A stretch of 64,000 bases of DNA from Rhizoclosmatium globosum (taxonomy: Eukaryota > Chytridiomycota > Chytridiomycetes > Chytridiales > Chytriomycetaceae). The DNA lies in contig MCGO01000066.1 in assembly GCA_002104985.1 (NCBI GenBank), positions 124,001 to 188,000 on the forward strand, read 5' to 3'. The notes beneath the pieces were generated by a model. It was not told the DNA's origin. It saw only the letters and a list, made by a program, of their open reading frames with translations, and did no database searches. Both the position numbers and the translations under genes were made by a program. Positions 2,121 to 46,556 of the stretch are shown piece after piece (within the stretch, counting starts at the first letter, position 1; each line of letters starts with the position of its first letter).

Positions 2121-3211
2121 TGTCAGGAGTTCCTGACAAGGAGTTTGGATAATTTACGTTTCGGCAATTTCGAAGTTTGTCGGAAGGGGTACAGGAAGCC
2201 GAACCTTTCTTATTTGAGTGGCTACTCAATTTCTTTGAGTGTCAGGACATGTTACTTGATAGCAAATTGGTTTTGCAAAAATAAAACAGAAAGTTCCCTC
2301 AAAAAGACAACAGTAGACTGTAGAGCCAACAGGTCTCTTTGAGGCATTCCAGAGGCCACTTGTCTGTGGATCATTAGGACATGATCGATTCAAGTCTGGA
2401 TGCCGGCTGAGGACAACCCGTCCCTAGAACCCAACCAGGTTGCTGCCAGACAACAGTTGCCAGTTCGCTGGGAAAGCAAGTCAATCCAGGCCAGGAACCT
2501 CTTTTCACCATGGGGCTCTTTCCCGAACGGAGGGATAGTACCCTTGGGAACCGGCCCAACCACGGCTCCATGGTCAAGGGGATAGAACACCGGCGTGTGT
2601 GAAATCCTAACAAGCACCCCCAACCAGTGGTATGCAAGCCAGTACTACACCACTCTCTCCAGACTCTGGGCTAGGAGAAACCAAGGCGCGGGTCCCTAAA
2701 ACGGATATACAGAGGCGACTGGTCAAGCTCCTTGGTGCCGATGAGCAAGCGATTCAAGCTGTCCAGTTGGGAATGTGTAAAGATCAACCAACTGAGTAGC
2801 AAGTACCGCGGTCCCAGGAAAGGATATTCGGGTGGATCACAACGGACCGGAACGAGAGCAAGGTGGTGCAAGTGCAAGTCTCGATGGTGCTCTAGTGGTC
2901 ATCGAGATGGCAAGTTTTGTGGTTAGGAGAACCAACAACAGATTGCAAGGTGAGTGTAAAGGTGAGTGCGAGGCGGTGCCGTTGTTATCTTTCTTTATTG
3001 TTGTTTTATGTTTCTATCCCATCATTACTGTTAGTTTTCTCTTTTAGATGTTGATGCAGGTATAGTGCTCGAGTCCTCATGGGCTTGTAGTGGCGACGTC
3101 CGGGGCCATCGGAACTGTTGTTTACAGTTCTGGTGAAATTGGCGGCTACAAGCGAGGGATGAGGAGCGCTGCCGGGAAGATACCGGCGAAAAGACCCCGC
3201 AAGTCGTGACA
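2121..3211 (+). repeat. Left LTR of outer element (1091 bp)
   Basis: Starts TGTCAGGAGTTCCTGACA, a perfect near-terminal palindrome, and ends CGTGACA, giving TG...CA ends. The copy at 29439-30529 has the same length and looks identical by eye. Near its 3' end there is a strong intron signal: donor GTGAGTG at 2950 and acceptor CTCTTTTAG at 3047. Small ORFs inside are considered spurious. Confidence 0.93.
2950..3047 (+). other. Candidate intron inside the left LTR
   Basis: Donor AAG/GTGAGTG and acceptor TTTTCTCTTTTAG define a 98-bp candidate intron with a pyrimidine-rich end. The same intron is in the right LTR at 30268-30365. It would be spliced from transcripts starting upstream in the LTR. 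No splicing evidence can be seen from sequence alone. Confidence 0.45.
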
Positions 3212-7855: not shown

Positions 7856-10524
7856 ATGTCCAAGAGAACTACTCGCGCCAACAGTGGCAGCTCCAGGTAC
7901 ACAATGTGCCATTATTCATCACCATTACTCTAGTCCTAGCTATTACTAGTCTCATATTAATCCATCACAAACTTAGCCTCGCGCGTACGACTATCAAACT
8001 ATACGATCGTACCATCCTCGTTCTCAACAACAAGTTTGCCACCCCTAACGAAGAAGAACTGCAACCCCAGACAATTGCCGTCCTTGCCGACGCCCTCCGT
8101 CTCAATTTCCCGGACCAGTTCAAGGATTTCATCGAGGACCAGAACCAAGAACCCACCGTCCGCGAAGTTGTTAACGAAGCCCTACGCTTGTCCCTGAAGT
8201 TCGACGATGGCCAAGTACTGACTGTGAAAGGATTCAATACGTTCGATGAAGCGTATGCTTTTGCAAGAAATAGACCAACGGATACTTTGTTGGAGCACCA
8301 AATTGGCATTAGAAACGCGAAGGAACGTTTGCTAGGTGCCCAAGTCATTGGAGCTTTTCCAAACAGCAGCGCCGACACACCCCCGCCACTGTCTGCAACA
8401 AGTGCTTCTTCAAATGCAAGTGTACCAGAAGACGAGGCAGATTCTATCACCGTACCGCACTCTGCATATCACACACCCGTAGGCAAAGGAGTCCGCTTTT
8501 CGACATTGCCAACAGTTACAAGTGCACCCCCGAGAGTACCAACTACTACTACCATTGTCCCACCGGCAACCAACATTGCTACAAACCAACCAGCTAATCC
8601 TGTTACGAGTACAGTTCAACAACCCCAGGCTACTCATATTCCGGTTCCTGCCCAACCAGCTACTTACGTAGCAGCACTTCAGCAAACTGCTGTAACTGCA
8701 ACAACCACTCAAGTTGCCAACCCAGCTCCGCAACCACCAGTAGTTGCTTATCAAGCTATTGGAACCGCTAGACCGTTGAACGAGAAGGACGTGATTGCAT
8801 CGATCACTACAGACCTTCCCTACTTGGAAAGTAAGACTGCTGCGAGATGGTGGAATGATGTTGCTGAAGCAAGAGACACTAACGTTGGAACTGGACTCCC
8901 TTTCATCTCGGACGTGGCATTCCTTAATGCCCTCGGACGAGGAAATATCGAAGGCGATCAGTCCGCAAAACAGTTCAAGAAGGACCTTCAACGTGCTGTT
9001 TCCTGGAAGGACGCACACGCCCGATTGACTTATTGGTTTCTTGACAATAAGAAGCTCCGCGAAATGGGCGCAGAAATTGATGACTTCAAATGGGATTCTT
9101 CTGACCCAGACCTCGAAGCCGTGAATATCAAAAGTATGAACAAGGCTCTCCCGTCTGAACACCAGCGTACCCTCCTGGAACTCAAACGTGGCTTTTTGAA
9201 GAATGCTCCAAGTTGCCAAGCCAAAGACGACTTGTATGATGGAACTGAAGTCAAAGTTCCGAATCGCCAAACCATAACCAACTTCGAAGACCCAGTCGTA
9301 TCATTGGAAGACATTGCTAAGGCGCTTAAGACATCAAAACGTCATACAAACACCAAGGAAACTGATATTGAAGCGATCTTGGACCAGTTTATTGCGAAGC
9401 AGAAACGTGACCAAATCCGCGAACAACGTGACCAACGCGAACGAGACTTCAACCGTGACAACCGCCGCTCTGACAGTAGAGACCGACGCCCTACTACAAA
9501 CTACTCCACAGATGGAGAAGACTTGGAAAGACTTTACACAATGCTTCAACAACACGGCATTGATCGCAAACAACTTAGCTGCTACAAATGTGGAAGGAAT
9601 GGTCACTTTGCCAAGGAATGCCCCTCCGCTAGTGACATCGACCATTACTTCAAGAACCAAAAGAAGTTCAAGGAATGGCTCGAAATGACCCAAGAAAAAC
9701 AGTTAAGCAGTATATCATCGTTATCCCTAGATGAAGTCACTAATATGACCACCTATTTCAACTCGCAGATAAAGGACGTATCTGGAGAAACGGTATCGCC
9801 ACCCAAAAGCATTGATTTGAATCAACTAATACAACTCATTGATAATAGACTCGTCAAACACGCATTTGATATAACAAAACCGAATCAAGCTGCCGAAACT
9901 ATAAATCCCATAAAAAATGACTCTACTTTTACTTCTAGTGCACTTGAGAATAAAAAGGATTCAACTCCATTTACTTTTAATATCAATATCAACCAAAACG
10001 AATTGAACAATAAAACGACCACTGCACACCAACAACCGACGGACAAACCAGACCTGAGCAACTCTGTTCCGAAATCCGCCATAAAAACAGGCACGAAACC
10101 GAAACCTAGACGGCGACTCACCGTACTGAATCGTGTAACAAAATTGGAATACAACGCAGACGTGCAAAGAATCCACAAGAATCGTGCCGTACAACTACCA
10201 ACCTCAGACGTCGAAAGGAGCGTAAGCAACAGACTCACGTCAGACACACGCATGCCGAAGCCGAGCGAACGCATGTACACCGTTGCAAGGATATCTGGAT
10301 GGGTTCACGGAGTTTTCATCAACCGACTTATGCAGGACACTGGAAGCAATCACTCGGTCGTAACTATGACATTTTTAGACCAATTAGTTAACCCACCTAA
10401 GATAATCAAGCTCGATCGACCAGCATTCAACAGAGGAGTAACGGGAAAACAAAGAATTATCGGATTCTGTTATATGAGACTACTGCCGGGACAATACACG
10501 CCACATACTCTGGGCTTTATGACG
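7856..10524 (+). CDS. Gag and start of protease, outer Ty3 element (interrupted)
   Basis: Structural polyprotein leading into pol. The first ATG that fits is at 7856 (MSKRTTRANSGSS). An 80-nt candidate intron, 7897-7976, joins it in phase to the main frame (SLARTTIKLYDRT). A capsid-like region follows, with a Pro/Thr-rich linker around 8520-8760 and a zinc knuckle CYKCGRNGHFAKEC at 9580-9621. The aspartic protease active site is LMQDTGSNHSVV at about 10330. The frame is cut at 10524 by the nested element and resumes at 23600 with RFTVVQDMPEDIIIG. The uninterrupted polyprotein would run on to 28970. Confidence 0.8.
10521..10524. repeat. Target site duplication GACG, left copy (inner element)
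   Basis: GACG precedes the inner left LTR and recurs at 23596-23599 after the right LTR. Removing the element and one copy keeps the outer element's protease frame open (LGFMT then RFTVVQ). Confidence 0.9.
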
Positions 10525-11235
10525 TGTCAGGGGATCTGACGGAGGGAGGGTTGCGGACTTCTCTTTTACTCGTTCTTTATTTATTTGTTTGTTATCCGGT
10601 GGCTGTGTGGGAAGAAGCACCGGAAGGGGAAAATGTAAAAATAGAAACTACCTTGTGAACAAAGCAGCGTGCGAACGGGCTTCGTTGGTGGAGGGCGTCT
10701 GGAACAGGACGGGACGCCACCCGACATACTTGAGCGAGGTGGCCTAGGTACGTTTCTCCCCCTTTCGAGCGTAGTGTCTAGCCTGAGTGTCGGGTTGACC
10801 TCCTGTAAGGGATGGAAGGGAGGCACCATGACTGCAGGCATGTAAGGACAGGAGGGTTAGTACGGGTTTCAAAGCTGGATGGTTTCCCACCTACCCAGAC
10901 CCGCGCTACGGGAATAGGGGACTGATCAACGATCAACCGGGGATCACTGGACGGGTTCGGTGGATGTGGACCGAGGACAGTGATCGACTGCGGATGCGAA
11001 CAGGACGGCTTGCGACAGGGATTCGCTGTAATGTGGGCTTGGACCTACTGGACGGACTGTGGGAAGGAGGGGACTTCCACTGGCGCATCCGAGATGAGGG
11101 GATCGGTGATAAGGTGACGTTTTCCTTTTTTATGTATGATGAGTGAGATACTATTGACTACGTGCTAGGTACCGTTACGTCGGACATGGACAACCTGACG
11201 TGCTTGGCGACGGCCGAGCCGGTATCCCGGTCACA
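10525..11235 (+). repeat. Left LTR of inner element (711 bp)
   Basis: Starts TGTCAGGGGATCTGAC and ends CCGGTCACA. Identical by eye, line for line, to 22885-23595 (offset 12,360 bp). Confidence 0.95.
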
Positions 11236-11236
11236 G

Positions 11237-11251
11237 TGGGGGCCCAACACC
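11237..11251 (+). other. Primer binding site, inner element
   Basis: TGGGGGCCCAACACC starts one base after the left LTR, the expected place and TGG start for a tRNA primer site. The tRNA is not identified. Confidence 0.6.
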
Positions 11252-11800
11252 AAATGCGAGTGTAGCGAGACGATTGGTCCGTCGATCGCTGGTCTTATTC
11301 CTCCGGCCTTCGGGCCGTCGAGATGATTATTTATAGCGTTGAGCTTAGCTCCGCACTGCGTTGAGTTATACTCCGCCTCTATACAGGGCTCCGGCCTACC
11401 TTTATAAATGATGAAACTATGGTGTCGTAATGACACTGACAAATAGATGACTAATCATCGAGGATCACCAGCAACTACTACAACAACAACTACAACTACA
11501 ACACCATACAACTCGAAATCGATTCGGAAACGATTCAGCATTGCAGTAAACACAGGACTGTGGAGATTGGAGGATAGAAGGAGCAGGCTTATTCTAACTC
11601 CCCTAACACACCCCAACACCTTTTACACTTTATAATCAAATAAAACCCTTTATTTCACGAATATCAATCACTCGAGCCTTACCTGGTTGACAAAGACGTG
11701 AAGGAAGAAAAATGACAAATGAAATTTTTAGAAATATTCCGACTCACCAAAGGAATATGATTCTTTCTTTCCTTTTCCTTTTTTCTTCACTTTCAAAAGA
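11252..11800 (+). other. Leader of inner element with a UUCG hairpin
   Basis: About 550 bp without a supported gene. At 11304-11317 there is a perfect hairpin CGGCC-TTCG-GGCCG with a UUCG tetraloop, an unusually stable fold. Downstream, two imperfect copies of TTGAG-N5-CTCCGC occur at about 11339-11381. A CAA/ACA-rich stretch follows near 11475-11505. Confidence 0.5.
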
Positions 11801-14800
11801 ATGCAAACAAACCGTATGAACCTCGACCCGCCCGCTGGGCCGACCTCGACTGCAGCTGCTGCCAATAGAGCCGGCGAGTCTACTCACCCGTATACTAATC
11901 CTGCAAGCAGGGGCGGTATTTCGAAACGAGGAGGTCGTAACCGTGTTGCTGCACGCAGCATGGATTCTTTCTTGTCGAATAAGTCGGCAAACATTCGGCG
12001 CACAGGTGCGCTACCTTCGAGCCCTAAGCTCTACCTAATACTTATACTAATACAATTCATTTTTATTATATTAGGTCGCGAAATGCCGGCTAACATTATT
12101 ATTAACCAAAACAGCCACTTCATGGCAGAATCGGCGAAGCTATTAGCCCATACGGTGCAGCTGATGGCTTCCATGGGTCAAAACTTGATGAACGAAGGCC
12201 TCCCTTACGACAAGGCTTGGGACGCTTGCCTCAAAACATCCAGCTTCCAATTGGAGCGACTCCTTGAACGCCAAAGAGAAGCCGACGCTATCGCTGCAGC
12301 AACACCACCTCTCCCACCACCTACCGAGGAGAACGCTACCCGTTACTTCCAACCTCAAGGAGGTCGCTACAGCCGTAACCATAACCAAGGATCCTCCTCG
12401 AACGATACTACCACTCGTTCCGGACGTCCGTCCAATAGCACCAACCAGAACCCTGAGTTCATCCCAGTAAACGACCGAGAAGACGGAGAAATCCTAACCG
12501 ATGCGCCCCGCTCGCCAGCTCAATCAAGTAAGGAGAACTTCATTCCCAAACTATATTTAACTGTAACACAGCCTCGGGTCTCACCGATGCCCTCGGCTCT
12601 ACTGCGATCAACTAAAACAAGTAACAACAAAAACACTCCTCTTTATTTTTTGCGACCACTTTACAAAACCAATAAAATCTATTTGGAAAGTATAAACTTT
12701 GGACTTCTTCGAACAGACGTACCAAAACGAGAAGAACCATATCCCCAAAGTCAGAAACTTCGGAAAATTCCCAGATCCAACGCAGGTTTTCTTTTCTTCC
12801 TGCTCTTTTTTATTCTCCGAAAGAAAAATTGTGATTCACGTAACGATAACAGGAAGGTACAACCTTACCTTAATACGACCCCAACTAATCTACCTAATAG
12901 CATGAAAGTACAGCATAGCCCGAACAACATCAGAGCCAAACTCCGAAACCGAAACCTTCTCGGCCGTGAAAGAACGACGTTCAGTTTTAGTCAGTCACAA
13001 GCCGACCCCTTCAGCCCAATCCCGGGCCTCACTTTGGGTGGCCCTTCCAGTGAGGTCAGGAAGAATTTAGCTCGTCTAAATCTGAACAACGCCGACGAAT
13101 CCTCCGACGAAGAAAGAAATGAAGGGCTTGCCAACTACCCACCACAAGAACCACGTGATGAACAATCACAAAACCCGGACGAGGCGCCTCCGGAGGAAAA
13201 CGAAAACGAGAATGATGACGAAGGTCAAGAAGACGACGAACAAACCCCAGACCAAGGCGAGGAACCACCGTCAAACCCAAACAACGAAGACAGACCCGTG
13301 TACTCCTACCACTTCTACGGATTTGACGTTCAGGTGGACAACGCCAACCTGATGTTCCTCGGCATGGAACCGGACTGGGATGTACAACTCTACGCCGCAA
13401 TGTTCTTTATTGCCGCCCTGTCGCTCCATCATTCTCGTACTGGAGTGCTACCTGTTCCAACCGTTCTCAGCGACGAAAATTTTGTTGCTTTTCTCGAATG
13501 GTTGTGCCTCAACGCCCAAAGAGGCTACGACCAGCTACCGGCAGATGTCTACCACCCTGCGCTGCCACACTCTAGCACCGACGTGAACAAAACTCCGGCA
13601 TTTATCCAGCTGGTTACCGGAATCTGGGCCATCCCCCTCTTCGACCGTCGAGACATCTACGTCAATGTCACCCGATCCATCATGCCCCAGCCTCCTGCTA
13701 ACAAAACCACCCCCGTAACACCGACGGCGAAAGTGACCAAGAAAGTGTCATTCACACCAAAACTAGAAGGTAAACCCCCGAGCTCGGCTACAACAAAACT
13801 AACAACGAACCAAACAGCAAATCCGTTCGTCGCCACCACACCTTCGCGAGCTCCGCAACCCCACAATGCACCACGAACACCCAAGACCCAGACAATGAGA
13901 CCCGGTCTCTTGACCCCTCGTACACCAACCGCCAGCCCTCAACCTCCACCCCTTGCCCACCTACCTCCTTCTACTGCAACGAAAGGACTTCAGATGAAGG
14001 TCAACGACTGGAACAAGGCCTTCTTCAAGCGGGCCCCTCCACTCACTGAGGCCAATGCCTTTGCCTTCCGTCAAGAGCTGGTCCAAACCTACGTCCAAGA
14101 CGTTTCGCCATCGGGACTCTTTGCCGACGACCGCGGCTTTATTCAGGGCCTCTTCATGTACGGCATTGATGGTGATGCCTCCGCGAAGAACTTCTACGCA
14201 AAAGCCCGTCACACCCACTCGTTCCAAGAAGTCCTGGACGTCTTCGATCGATTCTACACCAGATCTCACGATGTCGAAAAATTCTACCGCTCAGTCAAGA
14301 GCTGGAAGGCTGTCCCCGGTGTGAAGGCTATCACTCAGGGAACACAACTGGAACTCATGAACAACCAACAGGTGGACCATCGCCAACTCACCGCCCGTGA
14401 ACTCAAGTATGTCTTCATTGTCGGATGGCCGGAAAACCAAACAGTTCGAGATCTCTTGTTCAAACGTGAAGTACGATTGCCTGATGGTCAAGGAACGATT
14501 CAAGACTACGAAAGCGACGACGTCACAATGGAACACATTGCGAGTGCACTGGATTGCGACGACACACCCCAAACCGGAACAACGAGTACGAATTTAGACA
14601 AGAAGTCACTCGAAGCAGCTCTCAAGGAATTGGGATATCAGAAGACGTCTGATGTCGCTGCAAACGTGTACAACGGTACGTCTCAGCGACTTGGTCGCTT
14701 ACCTCCAAGGGATCAGGTGAAGAGCCGCGTACCACAAAACTCGCCAAAAGGAGTACTGGAGTCGTTCATTGTGGAAGCTCTCAACAACCACGACGCCGAT

Positions 14801-17800
14801 CTCGGATGTGCTGGCGAAGCTCCAATGACAATCGACGAAATTGGTTTATTCACAATGGCGATGGGGATTGAGTCAGGTGACCCTCGTACGTGCTACAACT
14901 GCGGTGAAGTGGGTCATATTGCAAGACATTGCCCAAACCCACGGAAGGGAACACAACAGTTAAGTCATTTACAACACAGCACTTCGAATCTAATATCGAC
15001 CAAACAGAAACCGAGAGACCTAAACCAAGTGTCAACAGGAACTTTTATTTCAAATTCTTCCTTTTTGATGGATACGGCGTCGGAAGACACAAAAAGTACC
15101 AATAAAGTTAATTCTCCCACCAAACAAAGTGAATGGATTGTTGAAGCAATTAGAGGCAATTATCGTGTCCTCCTCGAACCATCTAATACAGCGACCTCAA
15201 ACAACGAAACTGAAAAGAAGGACACGAGAAATACTAGAGAATCGAATGATAGTTTCGTTCAAGTTGAGCCGATGATGGTTAGCCGAATGAATCAGGTACA
15301 GCCGACGACATCTGATAACTCGACAAATACAATAAAAACCCCTCATTTCGAGCTCATTAATAAACTCCCTGAAGAAACTATTGCAGCCCTATACGAGAGC
15401 TATAAAAAGTCGCTCGACCAACTCGAAATAGACGAACGAGAAACAGGGGAGGCCTTGAACCTCCCCGTAACAGAATTTGAAATTGAGACGCCGAAGTGTA
15501 AGGCCACTAGCCCTGAATTGAATAAGCTTACAACTTATTGGGCCCAGCCGGCCCCTATCAAAACCAATTTAGACACACCACTCAAAAGCTGTATCAAAAC
15601 CCCAGCAGTAAATGAAACAATCGAACGAAGGTACAGCCCTAAACGAGTCACGTTTAGTAACAAAGTCCAATATCAGGACGAATATGGGTTTCAATATTAC
15701 GACGAACCATCGCCCTATAAATTAGGGCCAAAAACCTTCACGGCAATAACTCGAAAGCCAATCGATGCAGAAAGAGCAACCGAGGAAAGAATCTTCACCA
15801 TTGCTACTGTATCAGGATTCGTTAATGGTGTCCCAATTACATTACCAATGGATTCTTGTTCAAACGTTAACGTTATCACCCTAGATTTCCTGAGATCATT
15901 ACCCGGTAACATCTCAATCCAGAAGGTACCGCCGGCACTACAGAACACCGGTGTTGGAGGTTCCGTCCCGATTTTGGGATTCACCTATCTTCGAATTGCT
16001 CTTGGTGAATCCAACTTCTACAATCGACCGGTAAAGTTTTACATTATGCCCGCGTGCCCAAAGCCGATCCTTATGGGAAACCCGGGAATGGCTATTTTTA
16101 GGTGCAACCTGCTACTCGATGAAGATGTATGTACTTGGAAGTTACCATTAAAAGACAATAAATACATCTTGAAACATACCCCTCTCCACTCGTTCCATAG
16201 ATATCAGGACCCGTCCTCGCTTATGCAAGAGGATGACGAACAAGTGAAAGAAAAAGGGTTAGCCTTGGTAAAATTAGTAGACGACTTACTCCTGTTGCCA
16301 GGACACGAAACAATGGCAAAAGTCACGGTGGAGAAAGCGATAACCCCGAAGAACCCGAAGGAACGAGCATGTTTGATTCAGGGAATCGAATCGATGCAAG
16401 ATAACGGGATTTACTGCACCAACACCATCGTTGACCTAGAAAAACTCACAAAAGGAGAAGCTGTTGTACTCTTAGACTACGACCAGCCTCATGCGAAGAA
16501 GTTACCTAAAGGGACAACGGTCGGACGTGTAATGTCAACACTATCGGAGGTGATAACATTGAATCAGGAAATCTTGGATGACCCATCGGCCTTAATCGAA
16601 ATGGCGACTCTATGCAGTATACTACAGCCCGCTAATGAAGAGGAACTTGTATCATTATTATCGAACACTCCAATCTTGGAGGAAGTCGAAGATTTCGTCT
16701 CCCCCTTTACTTATGATTTCTTAAATAAAAACACTGACTATTCAGAAACGGCTCTTGATTTTGAAACACTAACTATCGATGAAGACGAAACTCTGGATGA
16801 CGACTGTTGTAGTATAGTATCGGATGAATCGAATTGGTCAATACCGTCGGTCTACGAACAACCCCAAGTCCCAAACTTTGACGAACAAAAGCCATTTGCT
16901 AGTGTTATCAACGGAGATCACCCCGAATACCGCCGATCTTCTCTACGTAAATACTCTCTAACGAAACCGAAAAGTATATGTACTTATCAAACACTAGAGA
17001 CATACACTACCGAAATAGACGAAGATCATATTTCCAATCCCATCATGAACTCTATACCGACAAAGGATAAGAGCAGAGAGGATCATCTCGATTACTTACC
17101 GCCGGCAAGTACACTGACGGATGATGAAATTTGGGAAAAGATTCCACACTCTCATATCTCTGGAACTTTTGGTGATGACGTACTCGCACGAATGGACGCT
17201 ATGATACGGCGCTTCGTGAACGTCTTCCGTGAAGGCATTGTAACGGGTACGGAAAGACTGCCACCACATGAAATTAAACTCAAACCAGGTGCAAAGATAC
17301 CACATACCAACCCATATCCTGAAGGTTTGGGAAGGACTGCTATACTTAAAGACCACACTGGTAAGATGATCACAGGAAACGTAATTGAACCATCTAAATC
17401 CCAATTCGCATCACCAGTAGTACTTGCGAAAAAGTCGGATGGATCTTGGCGATTTTGTGTTGACTTCAGAAAACTCAACGCCATGACCATACCCGACCGA
17501 TACCCCCTCCCTCGAATTGAGGAAATCTTCGACGCTGTTAGCAATAAAAAGATTTTTAGTTGTTTTGATTTACTCTCGGGTTTTTGGCAAATCCCCGTCG
17601 CTGAAGAAGACAGACACAAAACGGCGTTCATATCCAGTCAAGGACTTTACGAATTCAAGGTTATGCCTTTTGGATTAATTAACTCACCCCCAACATTTCA
17701 GCGCGCAATGGATCGAGTGCTTTCCGGTCTTAAATGGGTCTTCGCCATGGTTTATGTCGACGACATTATAGTGTTTAGTGACTCGGTTGACGAACACTTC

Positions 17801-20800
17801 AAACACTTAGAAGAGATTTTCAGTAGACTCGAACAGTTCAACTTAAAATTGAAACCAAGTAAATGTAAACTCTTCCATACTTCACTCCCTTTCTTAGGAC
17901 ATGTAATCTCCGAGGACGGCCTCAGAAAAGATCCAAGTAAAATGCAGGACCTACGAAATTGGGAACGGCCAACAAGCGTCCCCAAAATGCAACGATTCTT
18001 AGGGTTCGCGCAATACTTCCGACGTTTTATTAAAGATTTTGCCAATATATCAGCACCTCTTTATAATTTAATAAAAGACGGTGTAAAGTTTATTTGGGAC
18101 CCTTGGTGTCAACACGCCTTCGACACACTTATACGCGAACTTTGTAAGGATTCGCTTATGACAATTCCAAAAGAAGGTGATAAATTAGTGATTGAGTGCG
18201 ATGCGTCCGGCACGGGACTCGGCGGAGCTCTTTTTATTCAAGGGGAATCGAACAAGAAAACTGACCGTAAACCGGTCGCATTTATATCCAGAACACTTAC
18301 AGACGTCGAAAAACGTTACTCAAATACGGATCGCGAAGGGCTCGCGGTGATATGGGCAGTAACCTGTTTCGATCGATATATCTTCAACCAACCAGCGACT
18401 GTCGAAACCGATCATAGCGCCTTATTAAGCCTTTTCAAAAATGGAGCACTTACAGGACGGTTCTCAAGATGGGCCTATGCCCTTTCGCATTACGACTTGA
18501 CACTGGTCCATGTTCCCGGCGACACGCAGATTGTTGCCGACACTCTATCAAGAGTATATTTAGGACGAAAAGAAAAAGAATTCGAGCACGTTGGTACTCA
18601 GACAGAACCAACAACATTGGTTCAAGCTTTATCTCAAAACAATAAAACTGCTTTTATTAAACTTGCAAACCAAACAATCGACAAATTTACCTCACTTGGT
18701 GATACGATGCGAGGAATATGGAAGAAACTACAAAAGAAGAACGACCAGCTACGTGCTGTCAATAAAAAGATTCCATCTTTTGAGGCCTATAAGAAAAACC
18801 GCGAACCACTAGAAGGAACGCGATGCCCAAGCCTGAACTTCACGTCTCAGAATCTAAATGGTTTTAGTAATTCATACACAGCCTGGAAAAAGAGTAATAC
18901 CGAAATAAATGAAGGACAGACCGAGGCTACAATTATGGAGCGATACTTAGACATGTTAGGAGGGAGTGTCATATGTTTTCAAGAGACGCGACTGGGACGT
19001 AAGTCCACAAAACTCCTTTCACAAATGCAAACCCTTCCAAATTGGAGTTGCGCTATAAGCGACAACCTTTCGGGGCATTACGGAGTAGCCACTCTATGGA
19101 GAAAGGACTTGAAAGGCGAGATTCACTCGTACGGCGCGATGGACGAAGCTGACCCGGAGGGTCGTATCCTTACCATCACAATTGGCGACTTTGCTATTGT
19201 CAACTGTTATGCACCAAGTGGAAACAGAGATGAGAAAAGACATCTATTTAAAATAAACTTCCTTGAAAAATTAAAACGACACTGCCTACACCTACGTAAG
19301 AAACACTTTGTTCTGCTTATGGGCGACTTAAACATTGCCCCAGATTCGGAGAAAGATGTGATGCCGTTCGCCGTCGAAGAAAACTTGGTGGATTGTTTCG
19401 GTTCAACCATCAGCGCCGAAGAACAAATTTGGTTCAAATCAATGACTGAACACTTCCACGACGGCTTTCGAGTAAAACACCCAGAACCTCACGGCTCTAC
19501 TTGGCTTTTAAAAGCATACGATAATAAAGTATACCCTTTTTGGAGAGTTGACCACATACTTATAGACAATAGGATTGATAAGAAACACTTCGACGTGAGG
19601 ATCGACTCAAGAAAATGGGAAAGCGACCACGTCGCCCTGCAGTTACACACAACTTTCCACGGAAATGATAAATCAATTTTGATTGACAGAACATCATGGA
19701 CAAATAAAGAGAATTCCCAATACTATACCTTCTGTTCAGATGTAAACATCGATAACCTTGAAACAAATCTTAACATAACATTACCGAATTCAGGTAAAAC
19801 AGTTAAGGAAATCCGCGAACTTCAACTCGCCGATGCCCACTTTGGCCCACTTTTAAGATTTCGCCAGTATGGTACAGTACCTGAACCAAAGGAGGGTGAA
19901 ACAACTTTAACAAAAGATAACCTAATTGCATTGTCAAAGGACCTCATCGTCGACAGCAATGGACTCCTTTTCAAAATCCATAACGCCTCAAAACAACAAG
20001 TTCGAAAGCAACCAGCGCGCGTGACGTTATGTGTACCAGACAACATGCGACGAGAAATCCTGGATCTCCTCCACTCAGACCTATTTGCTGGACATTATGG
20101 GTTTGAGAAAGTTTACACACCCCTCCTTGACCGCTATTGGTGGCCAACAGTAAAGAACGATTTAGAAAATGAAATAAAATCTTGTCCTGAATGTAATACT
20201 GCCAAAGATTTCCGACAAAAAGCTGGATATGTCTTTCCAATTCCAATTGGAAAACACCCTTGGGAAAGAGTGTTTGTTGACTTTATGCAACCACCAAAAC
20301 CAGATGAGAAAACAGGTAACAAATACATCATGGTTGTTGTTGACTCTTTCACTAAATGGGCAGAAGCCATCCCAATACCGGACCTTAAAGCCAAAACAGT
20401 CGCTGAGGCGTTAGTAGAGAAAGTATTCTGCCATACCGGCGTCCCTGTTTACTTACATTCTGACGGTGGAGAACCCTTCAACAGCAATCTTATGTTGCAA
20501 CTCTCCAGGAGATTTGGATTTTATAAGACGTTCACCAGTCCCTACTGGCCCAGAGCAAATGGGATGGTCGAGCGACTTATCAAAAACTTGTCAGAGCGAA
20601 TAAGACATTACATTAATAAATACACTTTTGATGATTGGGAAACCATACTCCCTTATGTTTTATTTGCGTATAGAACTCATGCCCATGGTACTACAGGAGA
20701 AACACCATTCTTTATGTTCCATGGATTTGACGCTCGATTACCTTCTGACTTACTTCTGGGAATTAACCCCATTGACATTGAAAAAGTCCTACCTGACTGT

Positions 20801-22592
20801 GAGGCAGACCTTACTGAAAAACCAACTTCTCTTGACCCCACCCCAGAGACACTCATTATGACTTCCCAAGAAACTAACTGCTGAAGAACCATTTCCGGAA
20901 AAACTCCCTAAAATAGCTATCGCGTCCTACCGATCCTTTCGACAGTTTATTCAAAGTAAACTATCCAAACATCTTTATGGATACGAAACAGAATATAACC
21001 CACAGCGTGTATTGAGGAAACTCTTTGAAAAATACAACTTAGATGCAATAGTCCTCATCCACAACTTACACCCAAAACAAGATTACCGAACAGACTACCC
21101 AGTTCCATATACTTTTAAATTAGAAGACGGGACAGATATCCCAAGAATTGGGAACTTCCGCATTGGAGCGGCAACAGCGGATGGCAAAGTTAGAACTGTA
21201 CTTGAAAACAAACCTGCAAAAAGAATAATAAATGTCTTCTCCCGAAAGAACTTAATACAAATAGGAAACAACTTACCTGATAGTCTCCCTGAAGATAACC
21301 CTGAACCTCAGCTGTTCTTGGGAACACCAGGTATTTTACGCTGTATGTACCGCGCCTATAACTTTACCACTAAAACATATGTGGATTACATCATACCTTT
21401 AGTTGATGCAACTACTAAAGACTTTGTTGTAGTGAGAGGTGTCCCTTTGTGGGATGGAGCCACTCAATTCTTTACAGTTGGTGAATCCTTCTTATTTGAC
21501 GAAGCTCCTATCCAAACTTTCATAATTAATGACTTTGAACCCGCAAATGATGAAACTCCCATTACTTTAGTGAATGAGATGGACTGTGACTTTGATGATG
21601 TAGCGGTGGTTGGTGAAACCTCACCAGAAGACATCAAATCATTTACTGAGAGATTAGTAAGAGGCCTACAAGCTTCTAGATCTGTCATTATAGATAATGT
21701 TAATAAAGAACAAGAAAAGTATGCAACCCAAACAAATAGTACTGTTGACCCTTCTCATGAATTTAGAGTAGGAGAACGTGCCTGGTTGGCGGTTCCCCTT
21801 ACTGCTGAAGCGCAACGCCTTAAAGTTGGAAAGAAGTTTATTCCACGATGGGTTGGACCTGTTAGAATTGTTGACCGAGCGGAAGGAGACGCTCAAACAA
21901 AATATAGAGTCGTTGAACGATTCCCTGGTAACCAAATTGTTGTTAGAACAGTGCATGCTAGTCGACTCAGACCATTCACAGCGCGAGTACCTGTTGACAG
22001 TGCAGAGGATGCCATGAAATTAGCAGGTGATGACTTTGAGACTGAGTACAAGAAATGGTTAGACGATGAGAAGCTAACAAGAAGACCTACCCACAAACAA
22101 CAATATGCATCCGGTGCAAGCCCTTGGCTACTTGCAAAGATTGACCCTACTTTTAGTCAAGAAGACATTGATAACCCAAAATTAATTATTGATAAAATCT
22201 TAGATGTTAAAAAGACTGTCAATCCAACCTCCTTTGAGTATCTCACCAGTTGGGAGATGTGGGGACGAAAGGAACGCCATTGGCAACGGGAAGAGGATAT
22301 GCCCTTGGAAGTTATAAGTGACTTCTGGGAACAAAATAAAAGAAAGTATAGGCCTTTATGGAATGAATACAAAAAGATGAAAGAGAGAATGTCTGAGAAA
22401 GTTAGTGGTGACTTAGCAATACCACTTGAGATTGACACGACTTCAACTGAAGTCCAACAGCAGAAAAGAAAGGCAAAAGCCAAACCAGTCGAAAAGATTA
22501 TCCAATCGCCTGTAGTTACTGACGCCGCAGAACAAAGAGCTTTAAGATTACTTAAGAGGAATCAAAAAGAGGATGAGGTTACCTGCAAGTAG
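11801..22592 (+). CDS. Gag-pol polyprotein of inner element (one frame break)
   Basis: Residue numbers count from the ATG at 11801. Gag is low-complexity and acidic up to about residue 700, then capsid-like. The zinc knuckle CYNCGEVGHIARHC is at 1031-1044. The protease-like site reads LPMDSCSNVNVIT at 1348 on, with DSC instead of DT/SG. RT has CVDFRKLNAM, FSCFDLLSGFWQIP and YVDD at 1985-1988. RNase H starts with ECDASG, its Asp at 2134. An EEP nuclease domain follows at about 2343-2615. Integrase has D2827, D2888 and E2924. The first frame ends at 20884. Homologous sequence goes on in another frame from about 20865 and joins the 526-codon stretch ending at 22592, which carries the integrase tail and a chromodomain-like module (FEYLTSWEMWGRKERHW). 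A 69-nt in-frame GT-AG segment at 12006-12074 may be an intron. Confidence 0.88.
18827..19645 (+). other. Exonuclease III/AP-endonuclease-like (EEP) domain inside gag-pol
   Basis: About 270 residues between the RNase H tail and the integrase zinc domain, in the same open frame. The EEP signature motifs appear in order: FTSQNLNGF (first-strand Asn 2351), VICFQETRLG (Glu 2395), HYGVATLW, VNCYAPSG, LMGDLNIAPD (Asp 2509, Asn 2511), FWRVDHIL (Asp 2584) and WESDHVAL (Asp 2609, His 2610). These are the metal-binding and catalytic positions of ExoIII/APE1 nucleases, and the length suits ExoIII. AP-type endonucleases are standard in LINEs, N-terminal to RT, but not expected here. Activity and role are inferred only. 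Confidence 0.88.
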
Positions 22593-22884
22593 CCCCTTCC
22601 TAACACCACTTTTAGGTAATTAAATACAAGATCTTTGGATCCACCGGTGACCAGGGCACTACTAGGACGAACGCGCCTACTCATACAATTATGGCAAGAA
22701 AGGTGTTCTCATGGCTCGCGCCCTGGAGCGAGTTGAGAACAGCCCTTTCATTTCTTCAGCAGCTGGATGAGTGGTGGAGTTGGTTGTGTTGGTTTTTAGT
22801 TTCGTTTGGACATGTCGGTAGCCTTTCCTTGTTTCCAACTCTAGGTAACGGAGTACCTAGGGGTTTTTCTGGAAAAGGGCCCAC
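22593..22884 (+). other. 3' region and polypurine tract of inner element
   Basis: Non-coding 290 bp after pol. It ends with GGAAAAGGGCCCAC (22871-22884), the likely second-strand primer, directly before the right LTR. Confidence 0.6.
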
Positions 22885-23595
22885 TGTCAGGGGATCTGAC
22901 GGAGGGAGGGTTGCGGACTTCTCTTTTACTCGTTCTTTATTTATTTGTTTGTTATCCGGTGGCTGTGTGGGAAGAAGCACCGGAAGGGGAAAATGTAAAA
23001 ATAGAAACTACCTTGTGAACAAAGCAGCGTGCGAACGGGCTTCGTTGGTGGAGGGCGTCTGGAACAGGACGGGACGCCACCCGACATACTTGAGCGAGGT
23101 GGCCTAGGTACGTTTCTCCCCCTTTCGAGCGTAGTGTCTAGCCTGAGTGTCGGGTTGACCTCCTGTAAGGGATGGAAGGGAGGCACCATGACTGCAGGCA
23201 TGTAAGGACAGGAGGGTTAGTACGGGTTTCAAAGCTGGATGGTTTCCCACCTACCCAGACCCGCGCTACGGGAATAGGGGACTGATCAACGATCAACCGG
23301 GGATCACTGGACGGGTTCGGTGGATGTGGACCGAGGACAGTGATCGACTGCGGATGCGAACAGGACGGCTTGCGACAGGGATTCGCTGTAATGTGGGCTT
23401 GGACCTACTGGACGGACTGTGGGAAGGAGGGGACTTCCACTGGCGCATCCGAGATGAGGGGATCGGTGATAAGGTGACGTTTTCCTTTTTTATGTATGAT
23501 GAGTGAGATACTATTGACTACGTGCTAGGTACCGTTACGTCGGACATGGACAACCTGACGTGCTTGGCGACGGCCGAGCCGGTATCCCGGTCACA
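22885..23595 (+). repeat. Right LTR of inner element (711 bp)
   Basis: Same sequence as 10525-11235, preceded by a polypurine tract at 22871-22884 and followed by the GACG duplication. Confidence 0.95.
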
Positions 23596-23599
23596 GACG
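23596..23599. repeat. Target site duplication GACG, right copy (inner element)
   Basis: Matches 10521-10524 and directly follows the inner right LTR end GGTCACA. Confidence 0.9.
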
Positions 23600-26500
23600 C
23601 GTTTCACTGTAGTACAAGATATGCCAGAAGACATAATCATCGGAACACCAGAAATGAAAACCTTGAAAGCGACGATTTCCTTTGAAGACGATATGTTTTA
23701 CTGGAAGTCACCAAGTAAACCACACATCACACTAAAAACACCGCTATATTCTTACGTTGATTACCCTGAATCCCAAACGGAGAAGCTTTCAAACCTCAAT
23801 AAAAGAACGGAGAATATACCACTAACCCTTTGCAATACAACTACCCTCCAACCAAACCACACACACACTGTAAAAGTCCAAGCATCAAAAATTCCGGACA
23901 CAGAAATCACAACGTGTACAATCAACGGGTCCTCCGGCCTCGGCGACAAGTCAGTACATGTAGCATCAACAGTATTCGACTTCAAAGATATCGCAAAAGG
24001 GCCTGTGCCATTACAAATAACGTATTTAGGATCAAAACCTCTTACGCTAAGGGTAGGAACAACAGTAGCGTTCCTAACGGACACAGAAGCCGGAGACTTA
24101 CCAATATTAGAAGTACCAACGGAGATTTCCGAAGATGACAAGCTTGCACAAGACTTTGCATTGTTAGTGAATGCACACAACCCATCGGATCTTGAATCAT
24201 TCTATGAGAAGCTAGGTTCACCAAACCCGACACGACAACCTCTCCCGGACCCACAACAATCACCATTGCAGAATGATATCATAATGGGCGCAGCTATCAA
24301 CCAAAATTATGGAGAAAGTAATTTAGAAAGTGATGAAGAATTCTTCGAATTTGTCGACGGAGACGTAGACGAGTCCTATGAATTGTACCTTAACGACAAC
24401 GAAAGCATTTCAATAAGAGATGCAACAATAAACGACATATTTAAGAAATCAGAAGAAGATGATATCTTTGACCTATATTATGACCCTCTTGAGGACCTAC
24501 CCAAAACGCACCCTTGGACGCCACGTCGCAAAGGAAAGAAATATAGGAAACCACGCGTAAAACGCGAGCGAGGCACCGCTTTTAAGAATGCAACCTTCTC
24601 AAACGAGTTCTATAAGAAATACACCATGAATACTGAACCGGACGACATCCCCAACTATGGTTGGGAGAGGGACACATCAAAAGAAGATAAAATGGACTAT
24701 TTCCCTCCAGAAAAGAATGTCACTATTGAAGACATTTGGAACCAAATACCTAAAGAACATATTGTACAATTACACGGCGCTGAGGCACTCAGGAAACTAC
24801 GCTCGATCATAGAAAAATGGGCAGATATCTTCAGACCAGGAGTTGTAACAGGTACACAATTTGTTCCCCCACACACTATCCCCTTGAAAGACGGTGCAAA
24901 ACCACCCCACACAAACCCGTACCCAGAAGGAATGGCAAGAGCAGAAATTATTAGATCACACATTAAAGATATGCTGGAAAACAATGTTATTCGACGCTCT
25001 CGATCACAGTATGCAGCACCTGTCGTTCTGGCCAAAAAGTCAGACGGTAGTTGGCGCTTCTGTGTTGATTATAGAAAACTAAACGCAATTTCAATCATTG
25101 ACAAGTACCCTATCCCAAATATTGCCCTCATTTTTGAGAAACTGGCTGGACACGCATATTTCAGTTCAGTAGACTTACTGAGTGGATTCTGGCAAGTACC
25201 CATCGCAGAAGAAGACAGACACAAGACAGCTTTTGTAAGCTCTGCCGGACTTTACGAATGGAATTGTATGCCATTTGGTTTGGTAAATTCACCAAGTACG
25301 TTCCAACGAATGATAGATCTTGTCCTTGCTGGACTCAAGTGGGTACATTGCCTTGTTTATATAGACGACGTTGTAATCTACAGCGAGGATTTAGACTCCC
25401 ACTTTGAATACTTAGATATGGTCTTTGGACGTTTCCACGAATTCAATCTAAAAGTCAAACCCAAGAAATGCAACTTACTATTCACGTCTCTACCTTTCTT
25501 AGGTCACGTTATTTCAAAAGAAGGACTGAGAAAAGATCCCAAGAAAATGGCAGCTCTTGAGAACTGGCCACGCCCCAAAAACGTCAAAGACCTACAGAGA
25601 TTCATTGGTTTCACCTCATACTTCAGACGTTTCCTCCGTAATTTCTCTGAAACTGCTAAACCACTTTATGAATTACTTAGAACAGACCACCCTTTCATTT
25701 GGTCAGAGGAACGCGAGAAAGCGTTTCAAATCCTAAGAAACCAATTACGCAATGACCAACTCCTAGTTGAACCAGATAAAGACTCACATCTCCTTATTGA
25801 ATGTGACGCATCAGGAACCTCAATTGGAGCTGCACTGTACACGTATGACCAAAAGAACGTCCGCGACAGAAAACCTGTTGCATTTATTTCTCGAACACTA
25901 ACCAGTGTAGAGCAAAGATATAGCAATACGGACAGAGAAGGCCTTGCTGTTGTATGGAGTGTTGACACTTTTGCTGGTTATCTTATAAATAAACCTGTCT
26001 GAATAGAGACAGACCATATTGCCCTTCTACCACTTTTCAAAAATGGTGAACTAACTAAAAGATTTGCACGATGGTGTTACGCACTTCAAGACTATGATAT
26101 CACACTTGTCCATGTAGCTGGAACAGCTCAGATTGTAGCTGATTCACTTTCAAGAATCAACTTCCGCCAGGACAACATTGACAAACGCGAGACAGAAAAA
26201 GTCCACATTGGAACGTATTTCCATCAAAATAACGGGGAGAATGGTCAAAATGACCAAGAAGTTGAATCAATCTACTCGAATCTACAAACCTTCACTATTG
26301 CATTCAAAGATAGACAGAGACGCGATGGAGCTATCATTGAAGGATTGATAAAGAAAGGAGGAAAAGACATCCTCAAATGGAACTCAAAGAAAAAGGTGGA
26401 CAGAATCCAATCTGTGAAAGACTTATCAAGAAATAAGCCAAGCATTTCCAAACAAATGAAGAGCAGGAAACAATAAAAGATTCCTACCCCACTTTAAACA

Positions 26501-28970
26501 TTACAAGTTGGAATACCAATGCCGCGAAGTCCTCCACTGTGCACATGACGACCTATATTCTGGCCATGCTGGATTTGGAAAAGTAATGCCTAGACTGCTA
26601 GAAAGATTTTGGTGGCCACAAATGGCTGCAGATTTAAAGAATCATATTGATTCTTGTGAGACATGTCAGAAATCAAAAGACAATATACGAAAACAAGGTT
26701 ACACCCACCCAATACCCATTGGACATTATCCTTGGGAAACAATTTTGTTAGATTTTGTAGGTCCCCTGAAACCAGATGCAGATGGAAATGTGTATATCCT
26801 TGTCCTAGTTGATAGCTTCTCAAAATGGGCAGAGGCACTACCAATCCCAGACACCAAGGCTGAGACGGTTGCTCGCATCCTGATAGAACAAGTATTTTGC
26901 CGCTATGGGATCCCTATCTTTATCCACACGGACAATGGTCCCCTGTTCAATGGTAAACTCATGGAATACCTGAGTAGAGCATTTGGCTTTGAGAAGACAT
27001 TCACAGCCCCCTACCGCCCAGAGGCCAATGGACCAGTTGAAAGACTTATCAAAACTCTGTCCCAGAAGCTGCGCGCTTATGTAGATAAAACAGACTATGA
27101 TGATTGGAGTGCATACCTCCCTTACGTTCTTTTTGCTTACCGCACACAGGTCCATGCCTCAATAAAGGACACACCTTTCTTTGTAATGTTTGGACGTGAA
27201 GCCAGAGTACCAGCTGATTTGTTAGTTGGAGTCAGTCCCCTCCAAGCACAATCTGCAATTGAGAGCCAACATAAATTGGACCTGTTAGAGAGCAATGCCA
27301 GCTATGAAACAGTTGAACCAAACACCAAGCATGAGGCCAGAATTGGAATTGCAAAATTCAGAAGACTAGCACCATTCATGTGCAAGACTTTGGGAAAGCT
27401 GCTGTATGGTGTTGAAACAGATGTGCCCAAACATGAGACTCTCAAGCGCCTGTTTGAGAAGGATGATTTGGACATCCTTTACTTACAGTTTGACCCCTTA
27501 CTCATATCAAAGAATATACCAAAAGAGCCATTTCCCTCTTGCTTTTACCTGAAAAATGGAGAGCGTATAGATAGGGTTGGAAAAACATACTTACTGGACT
27601 GGAGTTCTGGAGAACTCAAACTCAACAACTTCAGGAAACCCCAACGGATAGTCACAGTCTTTGCAAGGAAAGGAATGTACCAATTTGGTAGTGATAGCCT
27701 TGAAGATATAGATGACTCCTTTGAGTTACCAGCTATCTTCCTGGGGCGGGATGGAACACTAAGAAGAGTCACACGTGACAAAGGAGTTACTGTAACTCAA
27801 ATAGTTGTGGACCCTACCAAACCCCCAGGTGGAGTGATCATACCAAGAAAGATACTCAAACCAAGGACAACAGATCACCTGCAAACAAACCTGTTGAGGA
27901 ATAACCTACTCCGCTCTTTGAACTTAAAGACATTCAATATTCAGCTCAATAAAGAACTTACTAGAAAAGAAGTTGAAGCCATGAATGAGGCCATCAAAGA
28001 CCAGATTAGAGAAGGCCAATCAATTGCGCAACAGTTCATCAGAGATCATGTTGCCCAGGAGCAAAAGAAAGCAATTACCAAAACACTGACTACTGACAAT
28101 GCCCCACATGAGTTCAAGAAAAGAGATCGGGCTTGGTTAGCTGTCCCACTCAAGAATGTTGCACAACAAATGAATGTTGGAACCAAGTTCCTCTTCCGTT
28201 GGATTGGACCCGTGCCAGTAGTAGAGAGATCTACAGGAACCGCAGCCTCAAGGTATAAAGTTGTTGAAAACTTTGACAACATGGACTTGATGGTCAGAGA
28301 GTGTCATGAAAGTAGACTCAGACCATATGTTAATAGATTGCCAGTGGACAGTGCAGAGAATGCAGCAGTGTTAGCAGGAGATGACTATGCCACAGAGTAT
28401 AAGGCATGGAGTGATGCTGTGCTTTACTCAAAACGACCTAACCGAGGGCCCAAGAAGGCACTTGGAATGCACCCTCTTTTGTTGAAGAAGTGGGATCTAG
28501 AGTTCACTGAGGAAGACATTACACGTCCACTTCTCTTAATCCACTCAATTGAAGATGCAGATGGCAGTGCAACCAGAGGATTCCGGTATAGGACACGTTG
28601 GATGGGACGCGATAATAAGCCAGCTGCTAGAAAACATGATTCTTGGCAGGATGAGATTGACATGCCTGCTCAGATGATTGCTGACTATTGGGAGTCTGTG
28701 AAAACAACCAAGGCAAGAGCCTATAAACAGTACCAGAATTGGCTGAAACGTGAGACTGAACGCGCCAATACTGTTTTTGCAGAAACAAGGACCTTGGATG
28801 ACCCTAAAGTCCTGGAAAACAAAAATGCTGATCCAGAGCCTGAGCCAGAGCTTGAATCAGCTCCAGAAGAAGCCCTGACTGAAACACAACAAGAAGATGT
28901 GGTTGTGCCAGAACCAATCCTGACACCAAGAGAGCAGCGTGCCCTCAAATTCAGTCAGCTTAAGGAGTAA
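23600..28970 (+). CDS. Pol of outer Ty3 element: protease end, RT, RNase H, integrase, chromodomain-like tail (defective)
   Basis: Continuation of the interrupted polyprotein. The protease ends with DIIIGTPEMK, followed by a long acidic linker. RT has CVDYRKLNAI, FSSVDLLSGFWQV, MPFGLVNSPSTFQ and YIDD at 25358-25369. RNase H has ECDASG at about 25802. An in-frame TGA at 26000-26002 breaks the RNase H tail (INKPV, stop, IETDH). A stop at 26474 and a frame change precede integrase, which is open from about 26480 to 28970. Integrase has an H-C zinc domain and catalytic D at 26751, D at 26931 and E at 27039 with 35 residues between the last two. The C-terminus has the usual GPxxVVER and HESRLRP motifs and a chromodomain-like W-rich module near 28580-28695. 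Confidence 0.85.
26482..26520 (+). pseudogene. Relic of EEP endonuclease domain in outer element
   Basis: In the frame beginning TCC at 26482 the sequence reads SYPTLNITSWNTNA. This matches the start of the inner element's EEP domain (CPSLNFTSQNLNG). Right after it the sequence jumps into the integrase zinc-binding region (CREVLHCAHDDL). About 260 codons of EEP plus some linker are therefore missing, and the frames on the two sides differ. Confidence 0.6.
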
Positions 28971-29438: not shown

Positions 29439-30529
29439 TGTCAGGAGTTCCTGACAAGGAGTTTGGATAATTTACGTTTCGGCAATTTCGAAGTTTGTCG
29501 GAAGGGGTACAGGAAGCCGAACCTTTCTTATTTGAGTGGCTACTCAATTTCTTTGAGTGTCAGGACATGTTACTTGATAGCAAATTGGTTTTGCAAAAAT
29601 AAAACAGAAAGTTCCCTCAAAAAGACAACAGTAGACTGTAGAGCCAACAGGTCTCTTTGAGGCATTCCAGAGGCCACTTGTCTGTGGATCATTAGGACAT
29701 GATCGATTCAAGTCTGGATGCCGGCTGAGGACAACCCGTCCCTAGAACCCAACCAGGTTGCTGCCAGACAACAGTTGCCAGTTCGCTGGGAAAGCAAGTC
29801 AATCCAGGCCAGGAACCTCTTTTCACCATGGGGCTCTTTCCCGAACGGAGGGATAGTACCCTTGGGAACCGGCCCAACCACGGCTCCATGGTCAAGGGGA
29901 TAGAACACCGGCGTGTGTGAAATCCTAACAAGCACCCCCAACCAGTGGTATGCAAGCCAGTACTACACCACTCTCTCCAGACTCTGGGCTAGGAGAAACC
30001 AAGGCGCGGGTCCCTAAAACGGATATACAGAGGCGACTGGTCAAGCTCCTTGGTGCCGATGAGCAAGCGATTCAAGCTGTCCAGTTGGGAATGTGTAAAG
30101 ATCAACCAACTGAGTAGCAAGTACCGCGGTCCCAGGAAAGGATATTCGGGTGGATCACAACGGACCGGAACGAGAGCAAGGTGGTGCAAGTGCAAGTCTC
30201 GATGGTGCTCTAGTGGTCATCGAGATGGCAAGTTTTGTGGTTAGGAGAACCAACAACAGATTGCAAGGTGAGTGTAAAGGTGAGTGCGAGGCGGTGCCGT
30301 TGTTATCTTTCTTTATTGTTGTTTTATGTTTCTATCCCATCATTACTGTTAGTTTTCTCTTTTAGATGTTGATGCAGGTATAGTGCTCGAGTCCTCATGG
30401 GCTTGTAGTGGCGACGTCCGGGGCCATCGGAACTGTTGTTTACAGTTCTGGTGAAATTGGCGGCTACAAGCGAGGGATGAGGAGCGCTGCCGGGAAGATA
30501 CCGGCGAAAAGACCCCGCAAGTCGTGACA
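29439..30529 (+). repeat. Right LTR of outer element (1091 bp)
   Basis: Same sequence as 2121-3211, offset by 27,318 bp. A polypurine tract lies immediately upstream and the GTGG duplication immediately downstream. Confidence 0.93.
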
Positions 30530-30533
30530 GTGG
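30530..30533. repeat. Target site duplication GTGG, right copy (outer element)
   Basis: GTGG directly after the right LTR end (CGTGACA), matching 2117-2120. It overlaps the coding sequence of the interrupted host gene. Confidence 0.85.
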
Positions 30534-43992: not shown

Positions 43993-44052
43993 TGTTCTTG
44001 CGTCATTGTTTACGGTAAAAAATACACCGCCATATCTTTAGTAAATTAATAT

Positions 44053-45084: not shown

Positions 45085-45414
45085 TGTTGATTCTGAAGAC
45101 AATGGCAAGCACTATAATATGCATCGGGTGCGTGGCGAAAAAGAATCGTGCTTACAATGACAAAGTTCACATTAAAAAGACGTGAACAAAATCCAAAATG
45201 CGTCAAAAGATAATCATTTAAATTAAATTCTAGAAAGTGAAAGTTTATATTGTTGATTCTAAAGACAATGGCAAGCACTATAATATGCATCGGGTGCGTG
45301 GCGAAAAAGAATCGTGCTTACAATGACAAAGTTCACATTAAAAAGACGTGAACAAAATCCAAAATGCGTCAAAAGATAATCATTTAAATTAAATTCTAGA
45401 AAGTGAAAGTTTAT
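45083..45414. repeat. 166-bp tandem duplication between two seven-TM genes
   Basis: Copies 45083-45248 and 45249-45414, nearly identical by eye; one difference seen is TTCTGAAG versus TTCTAAAG. The unit holds the promoter side of the left gene and a stretch equal to the last codons of the right gene (stop at 45389-45391 in the second copy). Confidence 0.85.
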
Positions 45415-46420: not shown

Positions 46421-46556
46421 TGTATTCTTGAAACGTAAATTCCTAAATTCCTTACATTATGATGAGAATATTCTATGGCCAAGAAAACAATGTAACATGG
46501 GGATGCCTCCCATCTCACCTGCTTAGCAATCCAAGACCAGAACCTCATCTCAAAAA

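Follow-up and report, generated by a model that had tools for sequence, protein, structure and literature searches.

A Ty3/gypsy retrotransposon of the chytrid Rhizoclosmatium globosum carries a putative nuclease of the ExoIII/APE1 (xth) type, an EEP domain, between the RNase H (RH) and the integrase (IN) of its polyprotein. We propose, with a probability of roughly 0.5, that a Ty3 lineage captured such a nuclease and fixed it in the RH-IN linker, and that the enzyme is made with Pol, packaged and used for repair of the element's own cDNA.

The window, i.e. the entire stretch of 64,000 nucleotides analysed, is located on contig C384 of the host assembly that was searched (56.9 Mb, 420 contigs). 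Two Ty3-type elements are nested in it, one (the inner element, 10525-23595, 13.07 kb) inside the other (the outer element, 2121-30529). Further along, at 43015-62584 of the minus strand, there are nine similar frames of 301-373 aa in three runs, by eye one family of multi-pass membrane proteins. The features of the inner element are as follows.

10521..10524, unstranded: target-site duplication GACG, left; same letters at 23596-23599
10525..11235, plus strand: 5' LTR, 711 bp, TG...CA; identical to 22885-23595
11237..11251, plus strand: primer-binding site, read from the sequence; TGG start, one base past the LTR
11801..20884, plus strand: Gag-Pol frame, 3027 aa (ORF list)
14885..14938, plus strand: zinc knuckle (CCHC) of Gag (PF00098, E 3e-6)
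17429..17908, plus strand: reverse transcriptase RVT_1, residues 1877-2036 (E 7.6e-37)
18095..18493, plus strand: RNase H, residues 2099-2231 (PF17919/PF17917, E 3.9e-24 and 7.9e-26)
18827..19645, plus strand: predicted ExoIII/APE1-type (xth) EEP nuclease domain, residues 2343-2615 (PF03372, TIGR00633, AF2/Foldseek)
20033..20206, plus strand: integrase H2C2 zinc-binding domain, residues 2745-2802 (E 2.1e-15)
20255..20548, plus strand: integrase core rve, residues 2819-2916 (E 3.6e-9), D-x60-D-x35-E by reading of the spacing
21012..22592, plus strand: C-terminal part of integrase in a different frame from Gag-Pol (ORF list)
~22185-22331, plus strand: chromodomain-like end (Chromo PF00385, E 0.085, 13.2 bits vs a cut-off of 25.1)
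22871..22879, plus strand: polypurine-tract-like run, 5 bases 5' of the 3' LTR, by eye
22885..23595, plus strand: 3' LTR, 711 bp; identical to 10525-11235
23596..23599, unstranded: target-site duplication GACG, right, read from the flank sequence

By its LTRs, the short target duplication, the order of the Pol domains, the DDE integrase and the grouping of its RT the inner element is a Ty3/gypsy (Metaviridae) element. The 15-mer of the primer site was found at 10 places of the genome including the window copy, and at none in the reversed control. Pfam gave the order zf-CCHC, RVT_1, RNase H, Exo_endo_phos, Integrase_H2C2 and rve, and the catalytic motif of the RT is YVDD. An earlier note on this DNA had described a Ty3 element in which an ExoIII/AP-endonuclease domain, its catalytic and metal motifs complete and in order, lies between RNase H and a retained DD35E integrase. 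The Pfam order within a single frame of 3027 aa bears out this position, the integrase reads D-x60-D-x35-E, and all motifs were located, namely NLNG at residue 2351, FQET at 2393, YAPSG at 2470, GDLN at 2508, RVDH at 2582 and SDH at 2608. The frame of the window copy stops past the integrase core, at 20884, with the C-terminal part of the integrase in another frame; in copy C113 the frame is unbroken and 3609 aa long. A protease-like motif DSC is present at window 15851-15862 (residue 1351) and in L041 of family B (see below); in family D it is DTG. Pfam did not match a protease in the inner frame at E 0.01. With DSC, the active site of the protease may have been altered or lost in families A and B.

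The identity of the EEP domain was examined with profiles. The Exo_endo_phos match (PF03372) covered residues 2389-2610 with an E of 1.8e-8. The 273-aa segment scored 105.9 bits with NCBIfam TIGR00633 (xth), above the cut-off of 99.05, and 96.8 bits with the narrower TIGR00195, under the cut-off of 182.55. Seven of the eight element domains scanned reached the cut-off of TIGR00633; L056 stayed below with 68.0 bits. A profile of 57 ExoIII proteins gave 110.8 bits, and of 200 shuffled segments with the same residues 130 were reported, the best with 4.0 bits. Because these ExoIII proteins had been collected with element domains as query, this profile is biased towards elements as opposed to LINEs. 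No such bias affects the curated TIGR00633; the comparison there is with one host LINE domain, the only one scanned, at 42.0 bits.

At every active-site position (N, E, Y, D-N, D and D-H) the 13 element domains and the 28 ExoIII proteins compared agree, gaps in the aligned rows aside. The groups of elements described below differed in a tryptophan that we take to be the equivalent of W280 of APE1, which lines the abasic pocket. It is present in all six group I domains and in 27 of 28 ExoIII proteins, is replaced by F, A or M in all seven domains of groups II and III and is absent from the three host LINE domains. An AF2 model of the domain had a pLDDT of 88.1. In a Foldseek search with this model ExoIII/APE1-family enzymes were among the best 50 matches listed; the solved enzymes among the matches listed were 20-26% identical, the best of them including the DNA uridine endonuclease Mth212. 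LINE endonuclease structures were not among the best 50 matches listed, which does not show that the folds differ. Taken together, profiles and aligned residues assign the inner EEP domain to the ExoIII/APE1 (xth) type and not to the LINE type, and the predicted fold agrees with that of AP endonucleases.

A search of the genome with the EEP domain yielded 50 rows corresponding to 39 places, at least 34 of them belonging to the clade of the window, termed group I, and five to other groups. At least 18 of the 34 group I places have a full-length domain without stops. A match to the RT of the same clade is located beside EEP in 33 of 34 places, the exception (C124) being close to a contig end. 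RT matches of at least 57% that lack an EEP row belong to the outer element and to pieces on C181 and C346; these pieces are 91-95% like family A and stop before RNase H. Group I comprises the families A (window), B (L041), C (L042) and D (L043) with EEP identities of 39-62% between families (pairs A-C, A-D and B-C). The order RT-RH-EEP-H2C2-rve was present in a single frame in the window, L041, L042 and L043, as established by Pfam for one representative copy of each family. In L043 a weak match to dUTPase (E 0.05) covers residues 293-386, ahead of RT; paired with an AP nuclease, such an enzyme would suit a uracil theme. The earlier note had called for other LTR elements with the same order and catalytic residues, and these were indeed found in families A-D of group I and in group II. 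It had also raised the possibility of an assembly chimera, which the 34 or more group I places rule out; the segment is genuine.

Comparison of EEP sequences within families C and D gave synonymous differences of 0.75 (saturated; C vs C2) and 0.81 (D vs D2) with nonsynonymous differences of 0.10 and 0.18, respectively. Synonymous sites were saturated in all seven EEP pairs so that dN/dS is not given for EEP. With the protein conserved at saturated synonymous sites, it has been kept by purifying selection. The distance from RH to H2C2 was 517-564 aa in five group I rows and 421-429 aa in three group II rows. Among 22 EEP-less proteins it was 84-190 aa in all but two, P0020 with 238 aa and P0024 with 321 aa; in III_a, where EEP is N-terminal, it was 125 aa (I_D2, III_b, III_c, P0021, P0022 and P0023 are excluded from these lengths). 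Thus the linker is about 300-440 aa longer where EEP is inserted.

The outer element lacks the domain. Its relevant features are as follows.

2121..3211, plus strand: 5' LTR, 1091 bp; identical to 29439-30529; GTGG duplication at 2117-2120
26479..26521, plus strand: remnant of the EEP start joined straight to the integrase zinc domain, the deletion junction; DSYPTLNITSWN then integrase
29439..30529, plus strand: 3' LTR, 1091 bp; identical to 2121-3211; GTGG duplication at 30530-30533

The outer element is 97% identical to L046, a copy of family D with EEP. The match breaks at window 26521, where 1.17 kb of L046 is missing from it: almost all of the EEP domain and the beginning of the integrase zinc domain. 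Splicing as the origin of the gap was ruled out because the lost piece does not have GT...AG ends, and a deletion is therefore indicated. As judged from this alignment, the outer element belongs to an EEP-bearing family and lost the domain by deletion, rather than representing an ancestor that never had it. The loss may have followed the insertion; alternatively, the outer copy may have moved in trans. Since the LTRs of both elements are identical, both insertions look recent.

Exo_endo_phos was detected in 83 rows in the whole genome, including further integrase-bearing elements. Group II (L045, L048 and L049) has the order RT-RH-EEP-H2C2. Pfam rve did not match in these three; L045 matched the PFV integrase with an E of 5.4e-10, and D, D and E of the integrase are readable in all of them. 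L049 has identical LTRs of 221 bp, an ACGT duplication and a primer site. In group III (L044, L050+L057 and L056+L058) EEP comes first, followed by RT, RNase H, H2C2 and rve; rve was above its cut-off in L058 only, and RVT_1 of L044 was under its cut-off. The terminal repeats of L044 are at least 1301 bp long and 99.8% identical. Internal repeats of 64-72 bp are present inside the long terminal repeats of L044 (with L061/L062). According to the coordinates of EEP and RT, C203, C90 and C387 are arranged as group II and C347, C411, C412 and C301 as group III; the EEP place at C54 was assigned to neither group. Target duplications of 4 bp and TG...CA ends were seen in three elements, i.e. inner, outer and L049. 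These arrangements indicate that a second, deep Ty3 clade bears EEP, either in the RH-IN slot or N-terminal to RT. LINE-type EEP frames exist in the same genome (L047, L051 and L052). In the host protein L053 an EEP domain is fused to one that resembles 2'-5' RNA ligases; the neighbouring frame is similar to poly(A) polymerases, below the cut-offs.

Searching a protein collection with the polyprotein and scoring the EEP part, we found no relatives among 222 candidates. The Pol of group II (L049) had 25 relatives among 8000 candidates scored; none of the 25 lists PF03372 and none matched the ExoIII profile better than E 0.36. A scan of viral contigs gave two weak loci, L065 and L066. The protein of the collection closest to the element domains was P0028, a partial sequence of the chytrid Obelidium mucronatum, with 64% identity to III_b over 223 aa. 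From this likeness group III elements are probably present in this second chytrid.

The question of one capture or two was addressed by phylogenetic trees. The RT-RNase H tree comprised 35 rows (P0020, P0023, P0024 and P0027 were left out), and its comparison set consisted of proteins from homology searches, not of named Ty3 reference elements. Group I formed one clade (100/99) and shared one side of a 100/100 branch with C77 and C365 of the host, for which the genome listing has no Exo_endo_phos row, and with 11 EEP-less Pol proteins. Groups II and III were located across that branch with EEP-less proteins, one of which is from Ganoderma sinense (P0012); they were sisters at 85/84 only. A single clade of all EEP-bearing RT rows was rejected by the AU test (p-AU 4.9e-5, lnL lower by 155). 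The EEP tree with LINE rows contained 43 of the 79 ExoIII-like proteins P0029-P0107, that without LINE rows 40. For EEP, group I was one clade (100/100) and groups II and III together another (97/99), with II nested in III. In the tree with LINE rows group I was separate from II+III, the bootstrap being not settled, and one clade of all 13 element EEPs was not rejected (p-AU 0.23). When LINE rows and three long ExoIII rows were omitted, groups I and II+III joined at 80/89, with long branches meeting. The rejection for RT combined with the ambiguity for EEP leaves two possibilities: the domain was captured twice, or it was captured once and later passed from one lineage to the other. By domain order the RH-IN slot is occupied in both lineages. 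As to the donor, which the earlier note had hoped to read from such trees, the domain is of xth type and not LINE-like, and a cellular APE1-like donor was not recognised in the host in searches with two ExoIII-like proteins, in which genes split by introns could be missed. The searches returned mainly elements, plus unclassified places including C212:299631, C69:32589 and C368:92080.

According to the reading that we favour, the EEP domain would derive from a cellular enzyme, would be made as part of Gag-Pol and would be packaged together with RT and integrase. It would act on the element's own cDNA by cutting abasic sites and by taking off blocked or unpaired 3' ends. The cleared ends would permit completion of both strands and leave both LTR ends with a clean 3'-OH for integrase, and the nuclease would supplement integrase and not replace it. 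Because group I keeps the pocket tryptophan, repair of abasic sites or blocked ends is favoured for this group. With F, A or M in its place a changed substrate is to be expected in groups II and III, and abasic-site repair may not be their task. Against this reading stand the identical LTRs of the outer element in spite of its lack of EEP, the RT pieces at C181 and C346 without EEP beside them, the faster change of EEP compared with RT and the failure to recognise a cellular donor gene in the host. That relatives carry EEP at two positions suggests a benefit of the combination for these elements. Tentatively, and at somewhat less than even odds, we would extend this to a class of LTR elements with integrase and an ExoIII/APE1-type nuclease. 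It would stem from two deep Ty3 lineages, with the nuclease in the RH-IN slot of both and N-terminal to RT in some, and would use it for an essential, hitherto undescribed step on the cDNA or its ends, the substrate preference having changed in the second lineage with loss of the pocket tryptophan.

ExoIII also has an RNase H-like activity. This or the 3'-5' nuclease might strip primer remnants and trim the cDNA ends before integration, with no damage being repaired. The polypurine-like runs end 5 (inner) and 4 (outer) bases short of U3 and the primer sites begin 1 (inner) and 3 (outer) bases past U5; in L049 these distances are about 15 bases for the nearest purine run and 1 base for the primer site. 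With this spacing cDNA ends would need trimming, and EEP adjoins RNase H and integrase. Yet the spacing was read by eye in three elements, all of EEP-bearing kinds, and integrase alone is able to trim ends in known elements. We regard pure end-processing as doubtful. LINEs use EEP endonucleases, and EEP could cut chromosomal DNA as it does there and prime or open the integration site. The order EEP-RT of group III is LINE-like, and groups II and III share the absence of the abasic-pocket tryptophan with the three host LINE domains. However, group I retains the tryptophan and is xth-like rather than LINE-like, and we consider target nicking unlikely because LTRs, primer site, DDE motif and 4-bp duplications point to insertion by integrase.

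We see little chance that EEP is directed against host defence, processing cDNA that defence has loaded with uracil or abasic sites, or that it acts on host DNA. Mth212 among the best solved matches listed and the dUTPase match ahead of RT in family D would be in line with this, but both hints are weak and likeness of fold shows no substrate. That the segment is a functionless passenger, a chimera or spliced out is hardly credible: the outer copy does without EEP, while the number of group I places (at least 34), the conservation of the protein at saturated synonymous sites and the outer deletion without GT...AG ends all speak against it.

AP-type endonucleases have counted as a hallmark of non-LTR elements. 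In this one genome, LTR elements that have an integrase contain them as stable components under selection, in two deep lineages and at two positions, which bears on how pol genes gain modules and makes it testable whether cDNA of LTR elements needs repair or cleaning of its ends during replication. It also bears on annotations that ascribe Exo_endo_phos near RT to LINEs, as does, in its accessible text, a screen of 1237 fungal genomes (PMC10799480). A survey of fungal LTR elements describes, in the part available, 'complex transposons' with additional domains and attributes them to multiple insertions (PMC3248453). The arrangement had been taken for new, and among the open-access papers listed, as far as their texts were accessible (preprints, Repbase reports and subscription journals lie outside), we found no Ty3 clade with EEP in the RH-IN slot.

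Among known systems, Juno and Vesta, LTR elements of bdelloid rotifers, acquired a 3'-5' nuclease independently at least two times, a DEDDy exonuclease encoded by ORF3 (PMC5408684, accessible text). The fold differs and the enzyme is in a separate third ORF there, whereas EEP is within Pol here. Kuafuorterviruses are reverse-transcribing elements with Exo_endo_phos as well, reported 'sporadically', with neither its position nor its conservation given, in the available part of PMC11673190; they are an animal lineage with an xADD RT (IADD/VADD/LADD), in contrast to YVDD in the window.

LINEs with an APE-type endonuclease share the EEP fold and an RT in one protein, and group III also their EEP-RT order. 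Unlike LINEs, the inner element has LTRs and a DDE integrase, and its EEP is nearer to ExoIII than the host LINE endonucleases are. With AP endonucleases of the ExoIII/APE1 (xth) family it has the predicted fold, the active-site residues and a TIGR00633 score over the cut-off in common, but here the domain is built into a retrotransposon polyprotein, at 20-26% identity to the solved enzymes among the matches listed. Finally, LTRs, primer site, CCHC Gag, RT-RH-IN order, DD35E and the 4-bp duplication are those of chromovirus-like Ty3/gypsy elements (Metaviridae), from which the inner element differs in that its RH-IN linker contains a predicted nuclease of xth type, about 270 aa long, and in that its chromodomain is weakly matched.
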